Positions 1 through 19,605 of a DNA stretch of 64,000 nucleotides are shown here, piece by piece. The position numbers and the translations under genes are program-made. How positions within the stretch are numbered: position 1 is the stretch's first letter; each line of letters opens with the position of its first letter. The DNA is taken from contig NZ_FWZT01000015.1 in the NCBI RefSeq assembly GCF_900177345.1, positions 1 to 64,000 on the forward strand, written 5' to 3'. The DNA comes from Pseudobacteriovorax antillogorgiicola (GTDB taxonomy: Bacteria; Bdellovibrionota_B; Oligoflexia; Oligoflexales; Oligoflexaceae). The notes below the pieces were generated by a model. That model was given only the letters and a program-made list of their open reading frames with translations, was not told the origin of the DNA and ran no database searches.

Positions 1-1605
1 GTTCCAGCCATAAGCTTTGAAGATAAGATGGCCAATGTTGCCGCTGTGACCAGCGCAGACGAAAAGCAGATGGCCTCTTTTAAGACAAAGATCGAAGAGC
101 TCACCCGCTCAAAGGCGGCCCTATTTAGAGCGGGAGAAATCGCTGATGCTGGGGCCTTTCTTGGGATGGCTGGCTTTAGTCCTGAAAAGATCAATGCCTC
201 TATCAAAGGTGTCTTAGACCTCGCCGCGGCCGGTAGGATGGAGCTCGCCCAGACAGCTGAAATATCGTCAAACATTCTTTCAGGCTTCAGCCTTCCTGCT
301 GAAGAGATGGCGCGAGCAGCGAATACCCTATCGGCGACGATGACCTCATCCAACGTTGACCTAGAGATGCTGGGCGAGACCATGAAGTATGTGGCGCCCA
401 TTGGCTCTACCGTCTCGGCCTCCCTTGAAGAAGTGGCTGCGGCGGCAGGCCTTTTAGGAGACGTTGGTATTCAGGGCTCTATGGCTGGTACCGCTCTTAG
501 GGCCATGACGACACGGCTTGCAGCACCGCCCAAGATGGCAAGAGAGGCCCTTGATATGCTGGGCGTCACAGCCAAAGACCTTGTGACGGGGGATCTTCGG
601 CCCATGGCTGATGTCCTTCAAGACATTTTCAAGAAGACTGAAGACATGGGAGATGGCGCCAAGCTTGGCTACATCAAAAAGATCTTTGGCGAGGAAGCTG
701 CAGCTGGAGCTTCAGAACTTATAAAACAGGCTGGCCGGGGACAGCTTCAAGAAAAGATTGCCGTCCTTGAGCTTGCGCCAGCCTATCGGCAGCTCATCCG
801 TGAGCTTAAAAATCTAGGTCCTGAGTTAGCCGATGCCATGACGATAGATCAGGGGGCCTCTGGAAAGAAGTTAATTTCTGGCTTCATCGAAGGACTAAGA
901 GGTCTTAATCGGAAACAGCTAGAGAAAAGGTTAAGTAAACTTGGCATCACCGACCAAGGGGCGATCGTTAAACTGACGAGCCGCTTTGAGGGTGAGGGGT
1001 TTGACGACTTTCTAGGAGAGCTAGATAAGGTCAAGTCGGCAGAAGACCTTGCGATTGAGAGGAACGGCAAGACAAGCCTTGCTCTAAAGCGGGTCGGGGT
1101 TGCTGCCAGCGAAACGGCGATTGCCATCGGATCGGTTTTCCTTCCGGCAATCGCTGAAATCGCAAGTAAAATTGCAGACACTGCCCTTGATCTAACACGG
1201 TTTGTGGAAAAAAACACCGAGCTTGTGAGGGCTCTAGGCATTGGCGCAGCAGCCTTTCTTAGTGCCAGGACTGCGGCTCTTGCTTACGAGATCGTAAAGC
1301 TCGGCCTTAAAAAGGCCATCCAAGGGGCAACCATCGCCCAACGGATCTTCAACGCTGCAAGTAGGGCTAATATATTCGGCGCCATCATCACGGGCATCGT
1401 CCTTGTCATCAGCTACTGGGATGAACTGAGCGAAATGATCGATAAGATTGCTGAGCAGCTGAAGGAGTTTTGGAACGAAAATATTGAGCTCATCAACTCG
1501 GTCGCAAATAAGCTCCTAGACCTCGCTCAATTCATCCCTGGGGGAGCTTTGCCATCAATATGCTTGGTCTTGACCAAGGAGTCGATCTTAGAATTCCCGA
1601 CCTAA
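1..1605 (+). CDS. Phage tail tape measure protein, 5' partial and frameshifted near its 3' end
   Basis: The reading frame is open from the first base, so the true start lies upstream of the window. The text (alternating Ala/Gly-rich helices, a repeated 'MAGTALRAM' style segment, hydrophobic helices around residues 365-385 and 445-460) fits the TP901/P2 tape measure family, which sets tail length and threads through the tail tube. It precedes gpU, gpX and gpD, the usual contractile-tail order. The frame stops at 1605 in an implausible tail (after 'PGGALPS'), while family-like C-terminal sequence continues in another frame from about 1546. A five-G run at 1540-1544 is the likely slip or deletion site. 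Function as a tail protein is confident; whether the gene still works is doubtful. Confidence 0.8.
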   Translation, partial: VPAISFEDKMANVAAVTSADEKQMASFKTKIEELTRSKAALFRAGEIADAGAFLGMAGFSPEKINASIKGVLDLAAAGRMELAQTAEISSNILSGFSLPAEEMARAANTLSATMTSSNVDLEMLGETMKYVAPIGSTVSASLEEVAAAAGLLGDVGIQGSMAGTALRAMTTRLAAPPKMAREALDMLGVTAKDLVTGDLRPMADVLQDIFKKTEDMGDGAKLGYIKKIFGEEAAAGASELIKQAGRGQLQEKIAVLELAPAYRQLIRELKNLGPELADAMTIDQGASGKKLISGFIEGLRGLNRKQLEKRLSKLGITDQGAIVKLTSRFEGEGFDDFLGELDKVKSAEDLAIERNGKTSLALKRVGVAASETAIAIGSVFLPAIAEIASKIADTALDLTRFVEKNTELVRALGIGAAAFLSARTAALAYEIVKLGLKKAIQGATIAQRIFNAASRANIFGAIITGIVLVISYWDELSEMIDKIAEQLKEFWNENIELINSVANKLLDLAQFIPGGALPSICLVLTKESILEFPT

Positions 1606-1760
1606 AGCCAAGGCAAAGCCAAGGCCCTGTCATCAATCAGACCATCAACGTGAATGAGGCTGAACGCCCGGAAGTCGCAGCAAGAAAGATCAAAGAAGAG
1701 ACCCTTAATCTTTTCAAGAACTCAGGCAACTATCCCCTCTTTGATCCGGTGGGGGTGTAG
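1546..1760 (+). pseudogene. C-terminal end of the tape measure protein, in the -1 frame
   Basis: This stretch continues the tape measure after the apparent frameshift. It reads through 'MLGLDQGVDL' and 'INQTINVNEAERPEVAARK', a soluble C-terminal tail of the type found in tape measure proteins, and ends one base before the gpU start. An ATG at 1560 would allow separate translation as 66 residues, but no Shine-Dalgarno sequence precedes it. I read it as the severed end of the upstream gene. A programmed -1 shift or a sequencing error in the G-run cannot be excluded. Confidence 0.65.
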
Positions 1761-2171
1761 ATGGCGCTTCCCATTATTAGAAAGACCTACCTTTTAAAGC
1801 TCGGCGACTTTGTTTTTGAGGCAGATACGGCACCCTTTTCAAAGCTCAGCCGGAGCAGCGATTTTCGCTGGAAGTCTCTTGAGATCTTTGGCGAAGCGCC
1901 CCGCTATCAATACCTAGGTCCCGGTGAGGATAGGTTCACTATTTCAGGCGCCTACTACCCCTTCCACAGAGGCGGCATGGAACCCATGGAGCGGCTTAGA
2001 GAAAAGGCAGGGATGGGAGAGCCACACCGCCTTATCTACACCAATAAGAAGGTAGGCGAGAATATGGGCCTTTGGATCATTCTATCCATCAAGGAAACGA
2101 GGACTCATTTTCTACCGGATGGCTCGCCGAGAAAGATTGAGTTTCAGATCGAGATCAAACGCTATGGCTAA
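1761..2171 (+). CDS. Phage tail protein gpU (P2 GpU family)
   Basis: The 136-residue protein matches the P2 gpU family in length and in its central 'FTISGAYYP' and 'WIILSIKETRTHFLPDG' segments. The family acts at the end of the tail tube in tail completion. The ATG follows the tape-measure stop directly, and the 3' end overlaps the next gene by 8 bases, so the module is translationally coupled. The sequence looks intact. Confidence 0.85.
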   Translation: MALPIIRKTYLLKLGDFVFEADTAPFSKLSRSSDFRWKSLEIFGEAPRYQYLGPGEDRFTISGAYYPFHRGGMEPMERLREKAGMGEPHRLIYTNKKVGENMGLWIILSIKETRTHFLPDGSPRKIEFQIEIKRYG

Positions 2172-2391
2172 GCTCTACCGCCTAAAAGACGGCGATGAGA
2201 TCGATGCCCTTATTTATGAGGAGTATGGCTTTACCGCGGGAGCCTTTGAAGAGGTCCTCCGCGCCAACCAAAAGATCTTAGGGCTTTTTCCCCGCGGCAG
2301 ATACGAGCTAGGCCAAGGGGTAGATTACCTTCTCCTTCCAGACCTTAAACAAGCAACTCAGAAGAAAAAGATTGTGAGGCTATTTACTTGA
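2164..2391 (+). CDS. Phage tail protein X (gpX family)
   Basis: This is a 75-residue protein with the pattern of the tail protein X family, a small LysM-like baseplate component: 'GDEIDALIYEEYGF' near the start and a hydrophobic 'LLLPDL' near the end. I chose the ATG at 2164, which overlaps the gpU stop (ATGGCTAA), over an earlier in-frame ATG at 2119 that would overlap gpU by 53 bases. Its TGA stop overlaps the TTG start of the next gene. Confidence 0.8.
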   Translation: MAKLYRLKDGDEIDALIYEEYGFTAGAFEEVLRANQKILGLFPRGRYELGQGVDYLLLPDLKQATQKKKIVRLFT

Positions 2392-3347
2392 AAGCAAGCT
2401 ACCGCATTGAATCGCCAAGGGGCGATATCACTCCAGAAATCAGATCACGGCTTATTGAGCTTACCATCACCGATGAATCAGGGGGCATGAGCGATGCCTG
2501 CTCCCTGGTCCTTTCGGATGAGCCAGAGCTTATCGAGCGGCCACGGGCTGGCGATACCCTTAAGGTGGCTCTTGGCTATGAAGAAGTCCTCATTGAGATG
2601 GGGCGGTTCACCCTAAAGCCTATCGAGGCTAAGGGCTATCCTAGTCAGCTTAAACTCACTGCCACAGCCATCGCTGGAGCAAAGAGCCTTCTTAGCAAAA
2701 AGGAGAGGTCTTGGAACAATCAAAGCATCGGCGATATAGCTCGCGAGATCGCAGCGGAGAATGGCCTTACGGCAGCGGTTTCAAGCTACTTTGATGGCAT
2801 AAAGATCAAACACATCGACCAGCATGAAAGTGATAGCTCATTTCTAAGCCGAATCGCTGAGATCTATGACGGGGTCTATAAGCCCTTTGAAGATAGGCTC
2901 ATCCTCATCAAAAAAGGGGAATCAGAAACGGCATCTGGCCGAAAGATCGAACCCATAACGATCAGCCGAGTCAAAGATTATTCGCTGAGCACTTCCACAG
3001 AAAAGGCTTATACGGGCGTTAAAGCCTTCTACTGGGATGAACGGCTAGCCGAACGAAAGGAAGTCCTTGAAGGGGCGGATGAGAGCGTCTTTGAAATCGA
3101 CTTTCTTATGACTGATAAGGCCATGGCAAAGAGTATTGCAGCCTCCAAACTAAAAAAGCTTGAGCGGGAAAGCTCAAGGCTAACCCTAACAGTGACAGGA
3201 AACCAAGAGCTTTTCGCTGAGCGAAAGGCTGAGATATCTGGCGTACGGCCTGATGTTGATGGCACCTGGCTCATTACAAAAGTAACCCACACGCTTAATG
3301 CGAGCGGATATATTTCTAAAGTCGAACTTGAAAGGACTAGCGAATGA
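2388..3347 (+). CDS. Phage late control protein D (gpD), baseplate hub
   Basis: The 319-residue product fits the gpD/VgrG-like hub family that forms the base of the contractile tail and carries the spike. Visible cues are a beta-rich N-terminal half with 'DTLKVALGYEEVLIEMGRF', a middle segment 'DIAREIAAENGL', and a C-terminal 'VDGTWLITKVTHTL' found near the end of this family. It starts with TTG overlapping the gpX stop and ends with an ATGA overlap into the collagen-like gene. No spike (gpV) or baseplate wedge gene follows, so the module is incomplete here. Confidence 0.85.
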   Translation: MKASYRIESPRGDITPEIRSRLIELTITDESGGMSDACSLVLSDEPELIERPRAGDTLKVALGYEEVLIEMGRFTLKPIEAKGYPSQLKLTATAIAGAKSLLSKKERSWNNQSIGDIAREIAAENGLTAAVSSYFDGIKIKHIDQHESDSSFLSRIAEIYDGVYKPFEDRLILIKKGESETASGRKIEPITISRVKDYSLSTSTEKAYTGVKAFYWDERLAERKEVLEGADESVFEIDFLMTDKAMAKSIAASKLKKLERESSRLTLTVTGNQELFAERKAEISGVRPDVDGTWLITKVTHTLNASGYISKVELERTSE

Positions 3348-4348
3348 AAAAACTAATTGGATTAACGCTGCTATCGACAGCAGCACTTGGAAGTGATTTT
3401 CCAAAAGACTCGGGCTACATCGAAGGAGGGAGAAGCCTTGGCGAGTACTCTGATATCGTCAACTACTATCCTGGCGAGGGGGTTGTAGTCAGGCGAAAGC
3501 CAAGCGACATGAGAGAATGCACAAATGGCGATGACTGCCCGGCTGTCGTGATCATTGATCCCGATACAGGCCGCATCAATCTACTGGGAGATGTGAACAT
3601 GCGCTCCCTTTACATCGGTGAAAGTCCCATCGTTAATAGCCAAGGGGATTGGCTTGGTAATATCGGAAACCTTAAAGGCGAGAAGGGCGACAAAGGCAAT
3701 ACTGGCCCCAAGGGAAATCCTGGACGTGATGCCGAGCCTTGTAAAGTACTCGCCGATCGCATTAGCTGCGGGACTACAGAGGTTTTACTCTCTTCCCTTA
3801 AGGGTCCCCAAGGGAAACAAGGTCCCAGAGGACCAGCCGGAGCTCAGGGACCACAAGGGCCAAAGGGAGAAAAGGGTGATAAAGGTGACACCGGAGCCAA
3901 AGGTGATCCCGGACCACAGGGCAAAGTAGGGCCCCAGGGACCAGCTGGACCAAGTGGTGGTGCCGGATCGAAAGGTCCGAAAGGTGACAAAGGTGATAGC
4001 TGCTACTTCGATATGTCAGCCCGAAAAATTAGATGTGGTTCCACTTCAATCAACCTTAGCGAGATCACGGGTCCCAAGGGTCCAAAAGGTGACAAGGGGG
4101 ATCCTGGAGCTCCAGGGTCGAAAGGACCAAAGGGTGCTCAAGGTCCTGCCGGTCCCACAGGCCCTAAAGGCGATAAGGGAGATAAAGGGGATAAAGGTGA
4201 CCAGGGCATTCCCGGCAAAAAGGGCGAGTGGGGTCTGCCCGGTAAAAAGGGTGATAAAGGGGATAAGGGTGACACTGGACCAGCCGGTGAAAGTTGTGTC
4301 CGAGGTCTTCGATTTATCCGAAATGTACCGAAGCTCTGGCTGATCTAG
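3344..4348 (+). CDS. Collagen-like Gly-X-Y repeat protein, probably 3'-truncated by frameshift
   Basis: The product begins with a signal-peptide-like segment (Lys-Lys, then a hydrophobic stretch to about residue 16). A non-repetitive head of about 90 residues follows, then three Gly-X-Y blocks at roughly residues 109-130, 148-220 and 242-320, rich in GPKGDKGD triplets. The blocks are separated by cysteine-bearing inserts of the form C-x(7-8)-I-x-C-G-[ST]-T. Bacterial collagen-like regions form trimeric stalks, often in phage tail fibres or surface appendages. The start overlaps the gpD stop (ATGA), tying it to the tail module. After 'GPAGESC' the frame runs into unrelated text and stops at 4348, while a cysteine-rich continuation lies in another frame. 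Confidence 0.8.
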   Translation: MKKLIGLTLLSTAALGSDFPKDSGYIEGGRSLGEYSDIVNYYPGEGVVVRRKPSDMRECTNGDDCPAVVIIDPDTGRINLLGDVNMRSLYIGESPIVNSQGDWLGNIGNLKGEKGDKGNTGPKGNPGRDAEPCKVLADRISCGTTEVLLSSLKGPQGKQGPRGPAGAQGPQGPKGEKGDKGDTGAKGDPGPQGKVGPQGPAGPSGGAGSKGPKGDKGDSCYFDMSARKIRCGSTSINLSEITGPKGPKGDKGDPGAPGSKGPKGAQGPAGPTGPKGDKGDKGDKGDQGIPGKKGEWGLPGKKGDKGDKGDTGPAGESCVRGLRFIRNVPKLWLI

Positions 4349-5256: not shown

Positions 5257-7548
5257 ATGAAATACATCGCTTTGATAATAATACTTATCAACCCTCTAAA
5301 ATCTCTTGCCGATAGTGCATCTATAGACATGTCGTTGAGTGATATCCTTAGCCTTGAGGTCGAAACAGCTTCATCGAACAAAGAATCCATCATGGACGCA
5401 CCTGCGTCGATAATAGTTATTACTGAAGATGACATCATAAATCGAGGTTATGAAAACCTGATGGAGATACTATCTGATCTCCCTGGTTTCGATGTTATAG
5501 GAACATCTGCATGGGACATTGCCTACCAGCGTGGTTACAGAACCCCTTTTCTACAAAGAACCCTCGTCATGATTGATGGACAGACCATCAATAACCTATG
5601 GACACATAACCCCGATATAAATCATATTCTACCGATTGAAAGCTTTAGTAGAATTGAGATACTCTATGGTCCTACATCTGCAGTATACGGACCAAACGCA
5701 TTTCTTGGAATTATCAACTTTATAAGCAAAAAGCCCTCTAATCTCGCGCAGGGTGAACTAGAAAACTATGCAAAGATATCTTTTGGCACGAAAAACACCA
5801 ATATCCTAGATGCACGATCCTCTGGGAATCTGGGTACCATAGCCTACTCGATAGATGGTAAATACTATCGAAGTGAGGGCTTTGATTGGACTTGGGACGA
5901 AAAATCCTACACTGGCTTCTATGATAATAGAGACGTGTGGGGCCCGATTGTTGATCATCCGTCCAACTCTTTCACCGGCAATATTGGCGATAGCATCAAC
6001 CCTAAAGAGAATAAATATATCTCAATCGCCGTTGAGTCCGGTGGGTTTTCCATGGGTGTCGAATATAGAGATCGGCAACAGGCTTACGGACCATTTTACT
6101 CATCAGTAAAAGCACAAGCAAATACTCCTTGGGGAGGAGGGTCCTCTAGAATATTCACCAAGTATAACTTCACTGGCAGCAGCTTCAATTCGAAGACATT
6201 CCTTCAATACAGAGAAAGCTCAACATATGGAGACTGGGCTGAAGCATACTATCACCCGTCTCAAGAAGGAAGTGAAGACGCATATAAAGGCATAACGTTA
6301 ACTCACTGGAGATCCGATAGCTGGGCAGCTCTCTTAACTCAAGATTTCGAAACAAATCTTTCATCAAGCCTGACTTTACTAGGTGGAGTAAAAGTTGAGC
6401 GAAAGAACTTACAGAAAGCGTACATCATACCCGGTTACTGGTGCACCAACGATTCGGAAGGGAACCCGATACCAGCTGCAAACAACGGAACAAAAACAGT
6501 TCTTGGAGTTAATTGCGGTGATAGCGTTCAGTCAGCCGAGGACTCCGAAGTTGTTTCAACGCCAATCCCTGACCCTTGGACCCACTCCGGATCAAGTAAC
6601 CGAACATACACAACTGATGCTGGTATCTATGCACTCGCTATATATAAACCAAATGAAAACTGGACCTACAACACCGGAATTCGATATGACGAAAACACAT
6701 CCTATGGGGCTAGCACAAATCCAAGGTTTTCGGTGATCTATAAACCGGAGAAAACAATGGCAGTCAAATTTATTTTGGGTACGGCCTTTCAAGAACCTGC
6801 TCCTCTGCAGGTATATGGTGGCTGGAACGGTCGAGCAGGAAATGAAGATCTTAAACCAGAGAAAGTCCAGAATGCAGAACTCGTGCTCACTCACGTATTT
6901 GGTAAGGTATTCCATGAGGTAGGTTCGTTTTTCTCGACTTATAAAGATGTTGTCAAGGAAGAGGCAGAGAATGCGGGTGAAAGAGAGATTTTGGGGCTCG
7001 AATATAAGCTAAACTATTCTTTCTTAAGCCCCTTGTCTAGTAGAGAAGCGGAAGTCGATTTTAACTACACATATACGATTTCAAAGTCCAGCATTACCTA
7101 TGATCATGGCACTTTTGTCAAGGGTGATAACGCATCCACAGAAGAAGGGGCTGGTTGGGTCGACAGTGACAGTATGGTAGACCTTGGTGACATTGCTCCT
7201 CATAAGGCAAATATAATTTTGAACTTGCCTACTGCAAACCACTTCAACATGAATTATGCCTTAAACTTTGTTTCATCTAGAGACCTCTATTTGAGAAACC
7301 CGTTGAGGCGTGATAATGAAGAGCTTGAAGGCTATTTGAATTTCGATACAACACTTGCCTATAGACCCACCAAAGAGTACTCATTGACTTTAAAGGTGCA
7401 AAACGTTTTTGATAACGAATATTATCATCCAGGTGGTGAACAAGCTGACTCAGGAATCAATAGGAGCCAACCAGCCGCTGGCTTCAGAAACTCATTGATT
7501 CCACAAGCTAAAAGAACGTTTCTAGTTGGACTCAAGGCAAAATTCTGA
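5257..7548 (+). CDS. TonB-dependent outer-membrane receptor
   Basis: The 763-residue protein has a signal peptide (about residues 1-18), then 'LSDILSLEVETAS' and 'DAPASIIVITEDDI', the entry of a plug domain in the BtuB/CirA-like receptor group. The plug runs to about residue 165 ('ILYGPTSAVYGPNAFLGIINF'). A 22-strand-type barrel follows and ends in a terminal Phe. Such receptors take up metal chelates, cobalamin or other large substrates using TonB-ExbBD energy; the substrate cannot be read here. No TonB system or periplasmic binding protein is adjacent. The last 300 coding bases plus 23 downstream are duplicated exactly at 10,979-11,301. Confidence 0.9.
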   Translation: MKYIALIIILINPLKSLADSASIDMSLSDILSLEVETASSNKESIMDAPASIIVITEDDIINRGYENLMEILSDLPGFDVIGTSAWDIAYQRGYRTPFLQRTLVMIDGQTINNLWTHNPDINHILPIESFSRIEILYGPTSAVYGPNAFLGIINFISKKPSNLAQGELENYAKISFGTKNTNILDARSSGNLGTIAYSIDGKYYRSEGFDWTWDEKSYTGFYDNRDVWGPIVDHPSNSFTGNIGDSINPKENKYISIAVESGGFSMGVEYRDRQQAYGPFYSSVKAQANTPWGGGSSRIFTKYNFTGSSFNSKTFLQYRESSTYGDWAEAYYHPSQEGSEDAYKGITLTHWRSDSWAALLTQDFETNLSSSLTLLGGVKVERKNLQKAYIIPGYWCTNDSEGNPIPAANNGTKTVLGVNCGDSVQSAEDSEVVSTPIPDPWTHSGSSNRTYTTDAGIYALAIYKPNENWTYNTGIRYDENTSYGASTNPRFSVIYKPEKTMAVKFILGTAFQEPAPLQVYGGWNGRAGNEDLKPEKVQNAELVLTHVFGKVFHEVGSFFSTYKDVVKEEAENAGEREILGLEYKLNYSFLSPLSSREAEVDFNYTYTISKSSITYDHGTFVKGDNASTEEGAGWVDSDSMVDLGDIAPHKANIILNLPTANHFNMNYALNFVSSRDLYLRNPLRRDNEELEGYLNFDTTLAYRPTKEYSLTLKVQNVFDNEYYHPGGEQADSGINRSQPAAGFRNSLIPQAKRTFLVGLKAKF

Positions 7549-7571
7549 TTTCGATCAAAATCGAACATTAA
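7249..7571 (+). repeat. 323-bp direct repeat, copy A (inside the receptor gene)
   Basis: This segment covers the last 99 codons of the TonB-dependent receptor, its stop, and 23 bases beyond. It matches 10,979-11,301 base for base at a constant offset of 3,730, diverging at 7572 (C versus G). Perfect identity implies a recent event or ongoing exchange. Confidence 0.95.
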
Positions 7572-7585
7572 CTTTAATGCATGAT

Positions 7586-10600: not shown

Positions 10601-10637
10601 ATGTCACTAATCTGGACTGTCTTGATAGGCCCTTAGT

Positions 10638-10978
10638 AGTTACTTTCACCAGTAGAAATTCAAAAATCGATTTCCCTCTCATAGCCTGATCTGCGATAAT
10701 CTCCTGATTTCATAGAATTACCCAAGACTTCGAGGACTCAAGGGTGAACCTCCGGTCTCAGCTATGGCGATCTACGGATTCACTTGAACCTATAAAACAA
10801 GCTACTCTTCTGCTATCCTGATATCATTGGGAATGGTGGTGTGCGTTCTGATTTCTAGTTGAGTGCTAAGTTCGGATCAAAAACTAGCAGCGTATCGAGA
10901 CCCCACCCCTGATCAATTGAAAACAGATTTTTCTCAAGTTTCCCGATCAAAAGTGGAATTTCTATTGGTGAATCTCAG
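10638..10978 (+). mobile_element. MITE-like repeat, copy 1 (about 341 bp, inverted ends)
   Basis: The left end reads TTTCACCAGTAGAAATTC. The right end, reverse-complemented, reads TTCACCAATAGAAATTC, so the ends form an imperfect inverted repeat. The interior is strongly conserved with copies at 14,223, 15,248 and 18,223 and has no conserved long ORF. Its right end abuts the duplicated receptor fragment exactly. No transposase is present. A non-autonomous element mobilised in trans is the simplest reading. Confidence 0.7.
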
Positions 10979-11278
10979 ATGAATTATGCCTTAAACTTTG
11001 TTTCATCTAGAGACCTCTATTTGAGAAACCCGTTGAGGCGTGATAATGAAGAGCTTGAAGGCTATTTGAATTTCGATACAACACTTGCCTATAGACCCAC
11101 CAAAGAGTACTCATTGACTTTAAAGGTGCAAAACGTTTTTGATAACGAATATTATCATCCAGGTGGTGAACAAGCTGACTCAGGAATCAATAGGAGCCAA
11201 CCAGCCGCTGGCTTCAGAAACTCATTGATTCCACAAGCTAAAAGAACGTTTCTAGTTGGACTCAAGGCAAAATTCTGA
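10979..11278 (+). pseudogene. 3' fragment of the TonB-dependent receptor gene (last 99 codons)
   Basis: The fragment encodes the final barrel strands of the receptor ('QNVFDNEYYHPGGEQ' through the terminal Phe) and is identical to the parent gene. It has an ATG at its first base but no ribosome site, and a barrel fragment alone would not be functional. It is best read as a by-product of the duplication. Confidence 0.85.
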
Positions 11279-11301
11279 TTTCGATCAAAATCGAACATTA
11301 A
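10979..11301 (+). repeat. 323-bp direct repeat, copy B
   Basis: This is an exact copy of 7249-7571. Its left edge coincides with the last base of repeat copy 1 and its right edge is at 11,301. Recombination with copy A would release a 3,730-bp circle carrying the 7TM-DISM kinase and repeat copy 1, and would leave the receptor gene intact. Confidence 0.95.
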
Positions 11302-11551
11302 GTTTAAGAATCACTACTTATAAGTTCATTGCTTATTTTCAGTGAATTGCACAGCATGGCCGGTGCCAAAAGATCTCAATTAACCCAGTAAATCTAAAGC
11401 ATTAAACCTACAAAGTTTCCTTCAAGCCTGTTACTATGTTTACCTAATGTTAGGACACCCATCCGCCAATATCTCTAATTCATTGTCAAAAATCCATGGC
11501 TCAGCACTTGCTCTTCAATTTGGTATACGCCTTTGCTGTGAGGAGACCACG

Positions 11552-13165
11552 ATGAAAGCAATGCGAGCGGCTCTCGATGTACTAGTGCTAATTCCTCTAT
11601 TACTAAGTTGTGATAACACTTTTGTCGACAACAGAGGCAAACAGGAGCAAAGCCAAGCTCCCCTTCTTCCTAAGGGGATAGAATTTTCTGTTGAACTGAT
11701 TGGTTTGGCTAACCTAGACAACGATAGTGGAGGTGGCATCGACTTCGAGAACCCGATCACAGAAGCCGAAGATGAACTGGTTCGCTGGGAACTAACTCCT
11801 GATCAGCTGTCGCTCATCGAAACTGATCATCTATTGGAATTGAAACTAGAGTCTACTGACCCTAGTATTAGGGTCTGGAAGAATGGAACTTTAATACTGG
11901 GAAAAGGATCGAAACCATCTCATTCCATCAAATACGATGAGATCGGCGGAATTGACGTTGAATTTGGAGAATTCAATACCAAGGAAGTGATTAGCATAAG
12001 CCACCTGAATGCAAATGGTGAATCTATTGGCAAGGGAAGCTTGACTCTTCGCTCGGCACCCTTAATTCTAAACCACCACCTTCAACCATCTGAACATGTC
12101 TATGCACTGGAAACTGAGGGCAACGAAGCACTCATCGAGGCATATAAGAGTGTTTTAAAGACTAAGTTCACACCTCTTTCTGGCACACGCTATCAAGACG
12201 ATGTGTGGGTTCAAGATGAGATTGAATTCGCCACTAGTATCGACCCTAGTGGTAAGAGGCAAGATATTATTGTTGATTCTATCCGAGACCGAGGGCTTGC
12301 TCCCCTAGCAAAAGATATATCGACTAAGCAAACTGTTGTCCGCACCTGGGGTCTACCTTCAACAGCGACTACCTTCGACTCTTTTGGCAATCTAGAGGCA
12401 AGCCCTCCAGTTACTGTTGATGGTGTCAATTATCCTTTTGGCAGGATTTACTATGGTGCCAACGACAACCCTTCTGAAAGCTTGAGTGAGTTACTCGCTG
12501 AAGCCTTAAGTGCCCAAGTTGTCCAAAAGCCTTTTGCCATAGATACCAGTTGGCTATGTGTAGGACACGTTGACGAGTTTTCTACATTTGTTCCTGATAC
12601 AAACTCCCCTAAAGGATTCAAGCTCCTAATTTCTGATATAAATGAAGCCTATAAACTATTAGAAGCTATGTCGGCAGATACCATGCTACCTCAGTATGCT
12701 CGTGACTTTGGTTATGAGAATGTCGAAGCTATTCTGGACGATCAAGCTCTACGAACCCTCAACGAGAATTTACAAGAAAATATCTTGGATCAAATCGTCG
12801 GAACATTTAAAAAAGAACTAGGGCTTGATGATACAGATATAATAAAAGTCCCCAGTCTCTTTGAAGATGAATTATGTGGTGATGGGGCTCATGGTGCATT
12901 GATACCAGGAATGGTTAATCTTGTAGTAGCAGATGATGAGGAGGGGGCGACAAACCTCTTTATTCCGGATCCTTTTATCCGAGCTGAGCTAACAGACCAG
13001 GCTAGCGATCCGTTCATAAAAGACTTAACTGAAAAGCTACCATCTGACTTAGATCTGCATTTTGTAGATGACTGGACAGTCTATCATATGGGGATGGGTG
13101 AGATCCATTGCGGCACTAATGTAAAACGAACACCAATGCAGAATAGTGGAGTACCGAGAACCTAA
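11552..13165 (+). CDS. Protein-arginine deiminase (PAD) family lipoprotein
   Basis: PAD enzymes convert peptidyl-arginine to citrulline. The C-terminal two thirds carries the PAD signatures 'VWVQDEIEF' (Asp222), 'WLCVGHVDEF' (His339, Asp341), 'YPFGRIYYG', 'CGDGAHGALIPGMVNLV' and 'MGMGEIHCGTNVKRTP' (Cys520). These match the four catalytic residues of vertebrate PADs (D350, H471, D473, C645 in human PAD4), so activity is plausible. The N-terminus has a lipoprotein signal ending 'LLLSC', placing the protein at the cell envelope. I chose the ATG at 11,552, preceded by AGGAG, over an upstream ATG at 11,447. The N-terminal 150 residues look beta-rich, as in the PAD middle domains. A HEAT-repeat lipoprotein follows 59 bases downstream. 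Confidence 0.9.
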   Translation: MKAMRAALDVLVLIPLLLSCDNTFVDNRGKQEQSQAPLLPKGIEFSVELIGLANLDNDSGGGIDFENPITEAEDELVRWELTPDQLSLIETDHLLELKLESTDPSIRVWKNGTLILGKGSKPSHSIKYDEIGGIDVEFGEFNTKEVISISHLNANGESIGKGSLTLRSAPLILNHHLQPSEHVYALETEGNEALIEAYKSVLKTKFTPLSGTRYQDDVWVQDEIEFATSIDPSGKRQDIIVDSIRDRGLAPLAKDISTKQTVVRTWGLPSTATTFDSFGNLEASPPVTVDGVNYPFGRIYYGANDNPSESLSELLAEALSAQVVQKPFAIDTSWLCVGHVDEFSTFVPDTNSPKGFKLLISDINEAYKLLEAMSADTMLPQYARDFGYENVEAILDDQALRTLNENLQENILDQIVGTFKKELGLDDTDIIKVPSLFEDELCGDGAHGALIPGMVNLVVADDEEGATNLFIPDPFIRAELTDQASDPFIKDLTEKLPSDLDLHFVDDWTVYHMGMGEIHCGTNVKRTPMQNSGVPRT

Positions 13166-13224
13166 TCCGCACAGGTGGATGAGATCTTGTCATCGCCATT
13201 CTCGGAATGAATGAGGAGTCCGAT

Positions 13225-14142
13225 TTGAGATACCAATGCTTGGCAAAGCACCGCTTCCTAGGCTCTATTGTATTGTTAGCTGTCACAGCTTGTGAGCCAG
13301 ATAAATCAGATAAAGCCCAAGATCAACCGTTCAACCCAAGTGCAGATATACATTCGAATGCAGGAATCACTGAGCCTCGAATGGTAGAAACCCGTACAGA
13401 CCTCAATGATGATAAACAGCTTTCGAATAGCTGGAAATCTAGGATGCATTCCGAGTTACAAAGATATCAAATGGAACAACCAGATGCCTACCAACACCTT
13501 CTCAACCTTCAACCTCGAAAGACAAGGGCAAGAAAATTTCGGTTTATAGATAACAGATTCAAAGATCCAGAATCTACAGCGGTCCTACTGTATCGTTTAG
13601 CTGAACAGAAAAATACACCTGAAGTAAGAGAGGCTTTGGTAGAAGCAATGTCTCGAACAAACGGTCAATATGAGGACGCCCTACTCGACCTAATCGCCAA
13701 AGAACCATCGCCGAAGGTCAAAGGAAGACTCATTACTGCTTCTCGCAGATCTAAGCCTTCAGTTGCCAAACAAGCAGTTTTGTTGGGGCTTCGAGATAGC
13801 TCGTCATTTGTAAAAGCTTCAGCGGCTAGAACAGCCGCAAAAATACCAGCGGACTCTGATATTACTGACCAACTCATCAGGCTATTGGATGACTCAGAGG
13901 TAAAGACTCAAATAGCTGTCATCCGTTCCATCAGGGTCCTGAAGCCTACGGACGCTAGGGAGAAACTATTAAGGCTCACTCACTCGCCTAATTCTACTAT
14001 CCGGCTAGAAGCACTCTATAGTATCACTCAGATTGCACCTCATCTACTTGATCAAGTAAGCCACTTAGAAAGGGATAAGGTCCTTGAGGTTTCAAGGGCT
14101 GCTATGAGGTTACGTAGCTCTATGCCCCATACAGACAGATGA
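13225..14142 (+). CDS. HEAT-repeat lipoprotein
   Basis: The product has a lipoprotein signal ending 'LLAVTAC', a charged linker, then five or six helical HEAT-like repeats from about residue 100 ('EVREALVEAMSR', 'SSFVKASAARTAAKI', 'STIRLEALYSITQI'). Such solenoids bind proteins. I prefer the TTG at 13,225, which follows GAGGAG by six bases and gives a normal signal peptide; an ATG at 13,207 is an alternative. It lies directly after the deiminase gene on the same strand, so the two are probably co-transcribed. A role as docking or substrate partner of the deiminase is my inference. Confidence 0.7.
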   Translation: MRYQCLAKHRFLGSIVLLAVTACEPDKSDKAQDQPFNPSADIHSNAGITEPRMVETRTDLNDDKQLSNSWKSRMHSELQRYQMEQPDAYQHLLNLQPRKTRARKFRFIDNRFKDPESTAVLLYRLAEQKNTPEVREALVEAMSRTNGQYEDALLDLIAKEPSPKVKGRLITASRRSKPSVAKQAVLLGLRDSSSFVKASAARTAAKIPADSDITDQLIRLLDDSEVKTQIAVIRSIRVLKPTDAREKLLRLTHSPNSTIRLEALYSITQIAPHLLDQVSHLERDKVLEVSRAAMRLRSSMPHTDR

Positions 14143-14222
14143 AGTGGCATGGTTAAAATCTTTGCAGAAAATTATCCTTGAATTTATAGCTAGGCGCATT
14201 GAATGTTGCTTTCGGCATATAT

Positions 14223-14585
14223 GTGACTTTCGGCAGTAGAAATTCAAAAATCGATTTCCCTCTCATAGCCTGATCTACGATAATCTCCCAGTTTCATATA
14301 AATACCCAAGATTATGAGGATTCAAGGATGAACCTCCTATCTCTGATTTCAGCCTTCGGCAAGGAAGCTATTGCGATCTACGGATTCACTTGAACCTATA
14401 AAACAAGCTACTTTTCTGCTATCCTGATATCATCGGGAGTTGTGTTGTGCGCTCTGATTTCTAGTTGAGTGCTAAGTTCGGATCAAAAACTAGCAGCGTA
14501 TCGAGACCCCGCCCCTGATCGATTGAAAACAGATTTATTCTCAAGCTTCTCGATCAAAAGTGGAGTTTCTATTAGCAAAACTCAG
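14223..14585 (+). mobile_element. MITE-like repeat, copy 2 (about 363 bp)
   Basis: This is the most diverged copy. The left end is GACTTTCGGCAGTAGAAATTC, and it has an extra stretch of about 20 bases near 14,345-14,365. The right end (TTTCTATTAGCAAAACTCAG) has lost some symmetry. A second CTTTCGGCA lies 18 bases to the left, suggesting a nested or repeated insertion. Its right end faces the 3' end of the minus-strand BP74-like gene. Confidence 0.7.
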
Positions 14586-14617
14586 GATAAGAGTCCCGAT
14601 TTATTTCAATAGTAGTA

Positions 14618-15016: not shown

Positions 15017-15247
15017 GTTCAGCTCCATAAATTTAAGTGTCACATAGAGTGATTGAAATTCAAAAAAATCACTCGCAAATAATTCTACATATTTGAGTAT
15101 CCTGCAATTGACCAATGTCACTTATTTGTAAAGCTCTCATTTCTGCGCCAACTGATCAGCTGGCAATGCCACTAGATTTAACTCTTGATCAACATCTATT
15201 TCCTCATCTGCCCTTAGTATTTTGTGATCACAAGTACCAGAGTTTAA

Positions 15248-15589
15248 AGTTACTTTCGGCAGTTGAAATTCAGAAAACGATTTCCCTCTCATAGCCTGAT
15301 CTGCGATAATCCATCAATTTCAAAATGTCACCCAAGATATCGAGGATTCAAGGATGAACCTCCGGTCTCAACTATGGCAATCTACGGATTCACTTGAGTC
15401 TATAAAAAAAGGGAATATTCTGCTACCCTGATATCATCGGGATTGGTGATGTGCGCTCAGATTTTTAGTTGAGTACTAATTTCGGATCAAAAACTAGCAG
15501 CGTATCGAGACCCCACCCCTGATCAATTGAAAACAGATTTTTTCTCAAGTTTACCGATCAAAAGTGGAATTTCTATTGGTGAATCTCAG
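15248..15589 (+). mobile_element. MITE-like repeat, copy 3 (about 342 bp)
   Basis: The left end is ACTTTCGGCAGTTGAAATTC and the right end GAATTTCTATTGGTGAATC. The interior matches copies 1 and 4 almost throughout, including the stretches 'CTCATAGCCTGATCTGCGAT' and 'AAACTAGCAGCGTATCGAG'. Its right end runs straight into a 5'-truncated pseudopilin gene, to which it supplies an in-frame GTG at 15,564. Confidence 0.75.
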
Positions 15590-15986
15590 ATTGATGGGTA
15601 CTGTGATGGCTTTGCTAGTTTCCAATCTAACAGGAACCCAAGAAGAAGCAAACGTGGATCTTACCAAGCTCTCTATTGGTAAGGTTGAAAAGTCGCTCAA
15701 GCTCTATCGAGTTCATATGCTAAGGTACCCACGCGAGGCGGAAGGGTTAAATGCGCTCGTCAATTCAGATCAACGGCGATGGAGGGGACCTTATGCAACA
15801 GAGGAGTCATTGCTCGACCCTTTCGGAAACCCCCTCGAATACAGGCTTGAGAACGGAAAGCCTATAGTATGGTCTGTGGGGATTGACGGAACAGTTGATA
15901 CTAAAGATGACATTTTCAAAGATGACCATAAAACTGAAGATGAACCAATATCTTTCGAGCTTGAAATACCCCCCCTCTGGAAATAA
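15564..15986 (+). pseudogene. Type II secretion major pseudopilin (GspG-like) fragment fused to the repeat end
   Basis: From 15,590 the text matches GspG: 'MALLVSNLTGTQEEANVDL', 'SIGKVEKSLKLYRVHMLRYP', 'EGLNALV', 'WRGPY' and 'DPFGNPLEY'. The prepilin leader and the first residues of the hydrophobic N-terminal helix (the GFTLIE segment) are missing. The repeat end supplies a replacement start ('MEFLLVNLR'). Without the prepilin peptidase site the product cannot enter a pseudopilus, so I call it a pseudogene or chimera. No other type II secretion gene is nearby. Confidence 0.75.
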
Positions 15987-17727: not shown

Positions 17728-18165
17728 TCATACGTTCAAACCTTGAAGCTGCCCTGTAATTCCCGAATAACCAAAATGGTTGTCATTGATTCCAAAGGCA
17801 TTCAAAATCGATACTAAAACATTGTTGTGCGGCGCGTGGAGGGCAAGCTTGTCGCTACCGCTGCATTTTTCCTGAGCGAAAAAGTAGGTACAATCATATT
17901 CAGGGTCCTGGGAAAGCTTATACCATGCTCCCATATCTAGTTTGCCCTGAGCACCTCCTAAAAGAAGCCACGGTACGTTCATGTTGCCATGAATGCCGCT
18001 ATTGCCAAGTTCATTGACCCACAAGATAACTGTATTATCGAGAAGAGTTGAGCCGTCAGCCTCAGTTCTTGAAGCTAGAGCGCTCATCAATCTTTCAACC
18101 TTCTGAGCTAAGTAGTTGTGATACGCAATCGATGGAGTAGATAACGTATTAAGAGTTGTGCACAT
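17728..18165 (-). pseudogene. DUF1552 family protein, C-terminal third only
   Basis: The 145 residues match the end of DUF1552 proteins (usually over 400 residues): 'STLLDNTVILWVNELGNSG', 'NVPWLLLGGAQGKL' and 'LHAPHNNVLVSILNAFGI'. The frame has a stop three codons before the ATG at 18,165, so the 5' two thirds is gone. The break lies 58 bases from the left end of repeat copy 4. DUF1552 genes usually pair with a cytochrome-like DUF1592 gene, which is absent here. Confidence 0.8.
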
Positions 18166-18222
18166 TTGGAACTAAGCGAAAAGGCATAGAAAAGCCCTCA
18201 ATCTGATAAAATTAGGAATACA

Positions 18223-18566
18223 AGTTACTTTCGGCAGTTGAAATTCAGAAAACGATTTCCCTCTCATAGCCTGATCTGCGATAATCTCCCGATTTCATAG
18301 AATTACCCAAGATATCGAGGATTCAAGGATGAACCCTCCGGTCTCAACCATGGCGATCTACGGATTCACTTGAACCTATAAAACAAGCTACTTTTCTGCT
18401 ATCCTGATATCATTGGGAATGGTTTTGTGCGTTCTGATTTCTTAGATGAGTGCTAATTTCGGATCAAAAACTAGCAGCGTATCGAGACCCCACCCCTGAT
18501 CAATTGAAAACAGATTTTTTCTCAAGTTTCTCGATCAAAAGTGGAATTTCTATTGGTGAAACTCAG
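18223..18566 (+). mobile_element. MITE-like repeat, copy 4 (about 344 bp)
   Basis: The left end is ACTTTCGGCAGTTGAAATTC and the right end GAATTTCTATTGGTGAAAC, closely matching copy 3. It sits between the truncated DUF1552 gene and a truncated group II intron maturase, so both neighbours are broken at its edges. The inner 'GTGCG' at 18,427 resembles a group II 5' end but is shared by copies not joined to an intron. Confidence 0.75.
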
Positions 18567-18656
18567 AAGAAAGGGCGAACCATCAAACTAATTCAACGCA
18601 TAATCAGGTCAAAACCTAGATTGTTTGCCCATTGGAGATGGACACCGATGTACTAA
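18567..18656 (+). pseudogene. Group II intron maturase, last 29 codons
   Basis: The text 'IIRSKPRLFAHWRW' matches the extreme C-terminus of group II intron reverse transcriptase/maturases. A stop follows, then an intact domain V three bases later, the standard layout of a bacterial group II intron. Everything upstream (reverse transcriptase and most of the maturase domain) is missing and replaced by repeat copy 4. Confidence 0.75.
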
Positions 18657-18659
18657 CAG

Positions 18660-18733
18660 GAGCCGTATGAGCCGAGAGGCTCACGTACGGGTCTGTGAGC
18701 AGTTCGAGGGGAAGTTCCTCTTACTGACTCGAC
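18660..18733 (+). ncRNA. Group II intron domain V and domain VI
   Basis: Positions 18,660-18,693 form a canonical 34-nt domain V: basal helix GAGCCGTA/TACGGGTC, a CG bulge, distal helix TGAGCC/GGCTCA and a GAGA tetraloop, with the AGC catalytic triad retained. The following 40 bases can fold as domain VI (AGTTCGAG with CTCGACT). The intron end lies two bases before the stop codon of the minus-strand gene at 18,736. Without domains I-IV and a full maturase it cannot splice by itself. Confidence 0.85.
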
Positions 18734-18735
18734 TT

Positions 18736-19605
18736 TTATTTGGGACAAATAATTGCAACACGTATTTCACACTTCTCACGATGACATTTCCATCGTTTGG
18801 TATCAGCTCGACACTCTGAATAGGTTCCCTCGCTGAACTGCGCGACCGAAACAGGTCTCCCTAGGTCGTCTTCAAAGGTTATCCCTGAACTTTTTAGTTC
18901 AGTTGGCGACATATCTAGGATGTATTCGGATATTGCGATATCAAGCTTTAACTTTTTCCGCTCAATATCGCGCCATCTAGCGTTCCATTTCGAGCAGGAT
19001 ATACCAGCAGTTAGACATGACATTCCTAGGCCCACCGAAACAGTAAGTTGACCAGTTAGAACCGAAGCAACTGTCCCAACGCAAGCACCTATACCGGCAA
19101 AGCATAGTAGATCGTCTTTACTAGCATTCGAGAATGCATCGCTATAGGAATCTAACTCATACTGTATAATTTGATCACGGGTTCGTGCATCGATTGTTAG
19201 GAGATTAGAACTTTTAGCCAGGTACTCTTTCAACAATGGATAATTGGTATATTTATAAGTTAATTCACCCGTTCGAACATGAACCCCAAAGATATGCCTT
19301 TTGGGTTTAGCATTAGCTTTCCATTTCTTATTAGTGACACTAAAAGCACTCATTTTACCGTTTAAGATACCAACCGCAGTTAGTGTGCAGTGAGAACCGT
19401 CACAAACCTCTGTAGCATTAAGAATACGGCTAAAGGATGCATTGGTTTTCATGGCACCGAGTTCACGTTCCTGATCGCTCGGTTTGTTGTCGTTGCCAGG
19501 TGGTGGCAAATTACAGGCATGTGACCAAGGCTTATCAATCTCGCACATTTCACCGGCAAAAGCTGTTCCTGATAATAGGATTAATAAAATTGATATTGTT
19601 TTCAT
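18736..19605 (-). CDS. Secreted cysteine-rich protein with SHACNL motif (paralogue-like B)
   Basis: The 289-residue protein has a signal peptide ending 'GTAFA'. The mature start is C-E-I-D-K-P-W-SHACNL-P-P-P, shared with the protein at 16,838. A middle region has a hydrophobic Gly-rich helix pair (about residues 165-200, 'GIGACVGTVASVLTGQLTV'), like membrane-inserting segments, and a tail of paired cysteines ('CRADTKRWKC', 'CEIRVAIIC'). A membrane-active secreted protein is one possibility, but no family is recognised. It overlaps the preceding 108-residue membrane gene by 4 bases, so the two are translationally coupled. Confidence 0.65.
   Translation of the reverse strand: MKTISILLILLSGTAFAGEMCEIDKPWSHACNLPPPGNDNKPSDQERELGAMKTNASFSRILNATEVCDGSHCTLTAVGILNGKMSAFSVTNKKWKANAKPKRHIFGVHVRTGELTYKYTNYPLLKEYLAKSSNLLTIDARTRDQIIQYELDSYSDAFSNASKDDLLCFAGIGACVGTVASVLTGQLTVSVGLGMSCLTAGISCSKWNARWRDIERKKLKLDIAISEYILDMSPTELKSSGITFEDDLGRPVSVAQFSEGTYSECRADTKRWKCHREKCEIRVAIICPK

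Follow-up and report, generated by a model that had tools for sequence, protein, structure and literature searches.

A PAD-family lipoprotein and its conserved HEAT-repeat neighbor in Pseudobacteriovorax antillogorgiicola point to a probable envelope module of Myxococcota type

Introduction

Bacterial citrullination is usually discussed by way of PPAD of Porphyromonas gingivalis and the protein-arginine deiminases (PADs) of cyanobacteria. Two types of bacterial PAD have been described and an active cyanobacterial enzyme has been published (Cummings 2021, PMC8826395); in a survey, 0.76% of bacterial species and 11% of cyanobacteria had PADs (PMC8826395). A bacterial PAD with all of the vertebrate catalytic residues is therefore already known and is not new in itself. 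The question raised by a PAD-like gene in a 64,000-nucleotide stretch of the Pseudobacteriovorax antillogorgiicola genome (contig NZ_FWZT01000015.1, positions 1 to 64,000; herein the window) is what kind of PAD it encodes, where it came from, and whether it acts with a partner.

Results

The Gene Encodes a PAD-Family Protein with a PAD4-Like Predicted Fold

The PAD gene and the codons of its catalytic residues are located as follows.

11552 to 13165, forward strand: PAD-family lipoprotein gene, 537 residues (Pfam PF03068; phmmer match to PAD4; AlphaFold2 model with Foldseek)
12215 to 12217, forward strand: codon of catalytic Asp222 (PAD4 D350; alignment)
12566 to 12574, forward strand: codons of catalytic His339 and Asp341 (PAD4 H471 and D473; alignment)
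13109 to 13111, forward strand: codon of catalytic Cys520 (PAD4 C645; alignment)

The open reading frame, whose ATG at 11552 is preceded by GAGGAG, was judged to be real. Its product matches PF03068 over residues 163-530 with E = 6.1e-72 and a score of 243 bits against a cut-off of 25; no other Pfam family is found at E ≤ 0.01. When all PDB chains were searched using phmmer, human PAD4 was the top match (E = 1.6e-51), PAD2, PAD1, and PAD3 came next (1e-40 to 1e-47), and the inactive PAD6 was a weak match. D222, H339, D341, and C520 align with D350, H471, D473, and C645 of PAD4, and none of the four varies in the alignments. The original prediction, made from the DNA sequence, had read this frame as a PAD lipoprotein carrying these four residues, and both its coordinates and its residue numbers proved exact. 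The gene is the sole PAD of the 7.28-Mb genome; neither it nor its downstream neighbor (see below) is given an NCBIfam name, and PADLOC, consulted for membership of a defense system, returned no match for the PAD.

The AlphaFold2 model, built with 35 natural homologs, has a pLDDT of 88.2 and a pTM of 0.86; only residues 1-39 and the last five are poorly predicted. Comparison of the predicted structure with PAD4 had been proposed as a check, and the best PDB matches found by Foldseek are indeed human PAD4 entries (E down to 6.8e-40; TM ∼0.75 by query length), many of them with a bound inhibitor or substrate peptide. The residues of the Ca1 site (Q221, E225, F278, L281, and E282) and of the Ca2 site (E223, D242, S243, and D246) match PAD4/PAD2 and are conserved in most of the clade defined below; of the positions compared, only D246 departs from PAD4, where N373 stands, and there it agrees with PAD2. 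The PAD4 residues that contact the peptide backbone are also largely kept, with W219, R245, R247, and V337 corresponding to PAD4 W347, R372, R374, and V469. By sequence and model, then, the product is a true member of the PAD family: its catalytic tetrad is intact and its predicted fold resembles that of PAD4.

The resemblance to vertebrate PADs (human PAD4 and PAD2) thus extends to the PF03068 domain, the tetrad, the Ca1/Ca2 residues, and the predicted fold. Unlike those enzymes, the protein has no PAD_N domain detectable by Pfam, and its PAD_M region is shortened to a brief stretch with an N-x-D-x-D loop (N54-D58) that falls below Pfam detection; the N terminus consists of a signal peptide, a linker, and this short region. 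It further differs from them in its lipoprotein signal, an extra Cys pair, a di-His linker, and the replacement of the calcium-switch Asp in this copy.

The Signals Indicate Export to the Envelope

The N terminus of the PAD protein carries an export signal:

11552 to 11611, forward strand: type II signal peptide and lipobox, MKAMRAALDVLVLIPLLLS-C20, with Asp as the +2 residue (sequence; a lipobox is present in most clade members)

The lipobox reads LLLS-C20 and the lipid-bearing Cys is followed by D21. Asp at the +2 position of a lipoprotein is an inner-membrane retention signal in E. coli. The surface location that had been proposed for the protein is therefore unsupported, and export to the envelope is all that the sequence signals indicate.

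The PAD Belongs to a Lipoprotein Clade Otherwise from Myxococcota

Searches of the genome collection placed PADs of Myxococcota and of deltaproteobacterial MAGs closest (38-47% identity), followed by cyanobacterial PADs (33-40% identity). The phylogeny with cyanobacterial and animal PADs that the original prediction had called for was built: in a maximum-likelihood tree the protein falls in a 17-row clade with Myxococcota-type PADs (support 100/100), outside the three-domain animal and cyanobacterial PADs, which form a separate clade (support 100/97). In an expanded tree with Myxococcota genomes, it lies in a 40-row clade with an SH-aLRT of 99. As judged from sequence, this is a lipoprotein clade whose other members come from Myxococcota. 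All traits of the clade, namely tree position, lipobox, Cys pair, and a downstream HEAT-repeat gene, are present in the P. antillogorgiicola copy.

PADs occur in 6 of 58 genomes of its own phylum, its own genome included, and the five full-length own-phylum PADs that were aligned are only 21-27% identical and distant in the tree. The protein is nested in the Myxococcota clade and far from the other PADs of its phylum, so that it was likely acquired horizontally from a Myxococcota-like source; differential loss could also produce such a distribution. PAD genes were found in 94 of the 379 Myxococcota genomes searched, with both PAD groups of that phylum taken together, and one or two copies per genome are usual. 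The second, separate Myxococcota group (L139-L170 and related loci) lacks a HEAT neighbor and mostly lacks the Ca2-site residues. Carriage by phages or plasmids was considered and rejected: the phage collection contains no PAD, and the only plasmid matches are divergent ones from Streptomyces/Embleya.

A Cysteine Pair and a Mixture of Features Mark the Clade

Two cysteines distinguish the clade from other PADs:

12557 to 12559, forward strand: codon of Cys336, the first of the clade-specific pair, three residues before His339 (clade alignment)
12875 to 12877, forward strand: codon of Cys442, the second of the pair and predicted disulfide partner (clade alignment)

Of the 40 clade rows, 39 have both cysteines and one has neither. 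Among the 114 rows from outside the clade, the full pair occurs once, and two more have a Cys in just the second loop. This all-or-none pattern suggests that C336 and C442 probably form a disulfide, a prediction that fits an exported enzyme.

Judged from the alignments, the clade also combines Ca2-site residues with the di-His linker of actinobacterial/fungal PADs. One study (PMC8826395) treats Ca2 and Ca4 as restricted to the animal/late-cyanobacterial clade and names a triple-His linker as the usual form in actinobacteria and fungi; the combination seen here bears on the claimed exclusivity of Ca2. The three-domain cyanobacterial PADs (Cyanothece type, active; PMC8826395) are likewise bacterial and share the catalytic and Ca2-site residues, but the one checked (L056) has PAD_M, their loci have no adjacent HEAT gene, and they group with the animal enzymes. 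The two-domain actinobacterial/fungal-type PADs and the second Myxococcota group share the di-His linker between the PAD_M and PAD_C regions. That second group, however, mostly lacks the equivalents of E351/D369 (Ca2 site) and of R372, and has no Cys pair except in L191. PPAD of P. gingivalis, of agmatine-deiminase type, is also a bacterial citrullinating enzyme with a pentein fold (PMC8826395) but belongs to a different family; the present protein has no agmatine-deiminase-type match at E ≤ 0.01.

This Copy Lacks the Conserved Tail and the Calcium-Switch Asp

Two positions call for caution about the P. antillogorgiicola copy:

13139 to 13162, forward strand: altered C terminus QNSGVPRT, replacing the conserved WWxxAxHLL tail (comparison with relatives)
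12329 to 12331, forward strand: codon of Gln260 at the calcium-switch position (PAD4 D388, PAD2 D389; alignment)

A WW-containing tail follows shortly after the catalytic Cys in 36 of 39 relatives and is missing here; the final eight residues of this copy match no relative. A tail-like peptide, WSTENLIRTGG followed by a stop, is encoded in another frame at 13147-13182, and the sequence points to either a near-terminal frameshift or an assembly error as the source of the loss. The altered tail makes the activity of this particular copy uncertain. The calcium-switch Asp, replaced here by Gln260, occurs in 21 of the 40 clade rows; it is not universal and has been reported as exclusive to the animal/cyanobacterial clade.

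The copy could thus be inactive and decaying toward a pseudogene, its tail lost by frameshift, with the family functional elsewhere. The unmatched last eight residues with a tail-like peptide directly after them in another frame, the Gln at the calcium-switch position, and the abundance of partial duplicates and truncated genes in the neighborhood are what such decay would leave behind. Yet the 537-codon frame is otherwise undamaged and keeps the catalytic and Ca1/Ca2 residues; the HEAT partner gene is intact; the canonical WW is also missing in L206 and L208, two divergent members of the clade; and a one-base assembly error would look identical. We consider decay unlikely, albeit the most serious competitor of a functional PAD at this locus.

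A HEAT-Repeat Gene Accompanies the PADs of the Clade

The original prediction, right about the family, was incomplete: it had overlooked the +2 Asp, the lost C-terminal tail, and the gene that follows.

13225 to 14142, forward strand: HEAT-repeat lipoprotein, PAD partner gene (HEAT_2; clade-conserved downstream neighbor; AlphaFold2 model)
13525 to 13527, forward strand: codon of Arg101 of the HEAT partner, in a predicted β-hairpin before the solenoid (conserved in all PAD-linked partners)

The partner starts at a TTG after GAGGAG, with an in-frame ATG at 13207, and matches HEAT_2 with E = 5.4e-13 (Pfam). A HEAT gene lies directly downstream on the same strand in 37 of the 39 clade members with enough downstream sequence, compared with 0 of 74 PADs outside the clade that have room for one. 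It is missing in L202 and after the first gene of the tandem PAD-PAD-HEAT array in L203 (G156:C110), where one partner is common to two PAD genes. A Fisher test on these counts takes no account of relatedness; the linkage is an adjacency retained across one divergent clade, not 37 independent events. Start-stop overlaps of −4 or −1 nt between the two genes are frequent in the clade, and its HEAT proteins mostly have lipoprotein or ordinary signal peptides. One natural PAD-HEAT fusion was found (L045); no frameshift was detected at its junction, and the next gene starts immediately after it. No terminator-like site was seen between the PAD and HEAT genes, and conservation of other PAD neighbors does not reach beyond near-identical genera. 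The partner is the one strong member of this HEAT family in its genome. Folded alone with AlphaFold2, it gives an α-solenoid (pLDDT 85.5) that resembles generic HEAT/alphaRep binders. Among open-licence literature, we found no relevant papers on PADs with HEAT repeats or on PADs in myxobacteria.

Members of the HEAT family also occur away from PADs. Genome G060 encodes two paralogs (C25:88401-89129, L211; C36:137647-138414, L212) that are lipoproteins or exported and are not adjacent to a PAD. The Myxococcota loci L227-L242 likewise encode PAD-free members of the family, either lipoproteins or otherwise exported; a YHYH-domain lipoprotein is encoded by the gene upstream of the HEAT gene in L227, L232, and apparently L230. 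The HEAT partner is therefore not exclusive to PADs, and these loci suggest a family that serves several exported proteins. The most economical reading is that the HEAT proteins are a family of exported adaptors in which one branch works for the PADs of this clade.

Arg101 invites another interpretation: the HEAT protein might present the hairpin that bears this residue to the PAD active site, as an inhibitor or a dedicated substrate. The residue, usually within TR-x-G, is present in every PAD-linked partner that aligns there and in the fused L045; the model places it in a confident β-hairpin outside the solenoid, and the two G060 paralogs not adjacent to a PAD have lost it. It is nevertheless kept by ten HEAT relatives whose genomes have no detected PAD, most such relatives retaining the Arg. 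PAD alone therefore cannot explain its conservation; we dropped the claim that Arg101 is a PAD-specific target and regard the inhibitor or substrate role as improbable.

An exported adaptor also has to be weighed against a toxin-immunity pair, with the PAD as an effector that reaches neighbors (outer-membrane exchange, the route of SitA, would be one way) and the HEAT protein conferring immunity. The gene order is that of sitA-sitI of myxobacteria, in which a lipoprotein toxin gene is directly followed by its immunity gene (PMC5562445); HEAT-repeat proteins are listed among the immunity proteins of polymorphic toxins (PMC3482391), and immunity genes are usually translationally coupled, as seen in PAD-HEAT pairs. 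SitA, however, has variable nuclease toxin domains, whereas the PAD catalytic domain is conserved clade-wide rather than polymorphic and usually occurs in one or two copies per genome. Those toxin domains of SitA that were tested acted in the cytoplasm, whereas the HEAT protein, too, is exported; HEAT relatives occur without PADs, and no sitB-like gene was seen. A toxin-immunity function is accordingly very improbable in our view.

Least probable of all is a role in nitrogen scavenging, with free arginine, agmatine, or short peptides as the substrates: pentein enzymes do include free-arginine and agmatine deiminases, and an exported lipoprotein could act on periplasmic peptides, but this PAD groups with protein-acting PADs (PF03068, with no second family at the Pfam threshold given above), and largely keeps the backbone-contacting residues, and a cyanobacterial PAD acts on proteins (PMC8826395).

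The Pair Lies in a Rearrangement-Prone Block

The PAD and HEAT genes stand between two copies of a repeat:

10627 to 10980, forward strand: repeat r1, left boundary of the PAD-containing segment (sequence comparison)
10979 to 11302, forward strand: near-exact 324-nt copy of the 3′ end of a TonB-receptor gene (7249-7573), starting exactly at the 3′ end of r1
14211 to 14586, forward strand: repeat r2, right boundary of the PAD/HEAT segment (sequence comparison)

Two further copies of the ∼350-nt repeat, at 15237-15590 and 18212-18567, bring the total in the window to four. The repeat has 20 matches in its own genome, including contigs C19, C35, C37, C52, C54, C8, C4, and C5 (L031-L039), and none in the genomes of 17 relatives. 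Its copies mostly form head-to-tail arrays near contig starts with gene fragments between them; the 3′ end is sharp (GAATCTCAG) and 5′ ends are often truncated. The array looks like one that captures or rearranges gene pieces. No transposase or integrase was found for the repeat and it had no match on plasmids; a structured RNA was considered and rejected (fold z-score −0.95, no Rfam family).

A full-length paralog of the TonB receptor, at 86% identity, lies at C20:122667-124937. A GspG-like pseudopilin gene (15564-15986) has sequence of the third copy, r3, in place of its own 5′ end, prepilin cleavage region included. Other repeat copies adjoin group II intron remnants: within 17747-18740, the fourth copy, r4, is flanked on one side by a 72-nt sequence (18140-18211) that recurs at 99-100% in other parts of the genome and on the other by a group II intron domain V/3′ end (18658-18733); next to these is a stretch with 87% identity to C19:101799-102182. 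The leftmost part of the window (28-4345) carries genes for P2-like tail proteins (tail tape measure, GpU, and GpD) and, after them, a gene for a collagen-repeat protein (Pfam), which possibly represent a prophage or tailocin.

The GC content of the PAD/HEAT pair (0.43-0.45) is slightly below that of the window (0.46). The earlier description of the PAD gene as part of a mobile block among repeat copies stands as far as the flanking repeats and the adjacent partial gene duplication go; with no transposase or integrase found, a rearrangement-prone block is supported and a defined mobile element is not.

Discussion

The PAD-HEAT pair is, on sequence evidence, a well-supported gene partnership in a known enzyme family, with a function that is predicted. 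We think it rather probable that 11552-14142 is a horizontally acquired two-gene envelope module, common in Myxococcota, that consists of an exported PAD and an exported HEAT protein. The PAD would be an exported, lipid-anchored, calcium-dependent protein-arginine deiminase of the PF03068 family. After Sec export and lipidation, it would fold with the C336-C442 disulfide beside the catalytic His, and periplasmic or external Ca2+ would order the active site through Q221, E223, E225, D242, S243, D246, F278, L281, and E282. C520, helped by H339, may then convert arginine to citrulline in envelope or external proteins, with D222 and D341 gripping the guanidinium. The HEAT protein most likely binds the PAD or presents its substrates, and its solenoid may recruit, scaffold, or restrain the enzyme.

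More tentatively, and with slightly more doubt than conviction, we propose that Myxococcota, and this bacterium by transfer, have a two-component envelope citrullination system in which a disulfide-stabilized, lipid-anchored PAD of a third type works with an exported HEAT adaptor. One of the two PAD groups of Myxococcota is exported and comes with a conserved partner, and this HEAT partner gives a direct experimental way into the question of how a bacterial PAD might be directed to its targets or held in check. If the proposal is true, proteins of the bacterial envelope or of prey would be regularly modified by citrullination after translation, and this would stand apart from the animal/cyanobacterial lineage.
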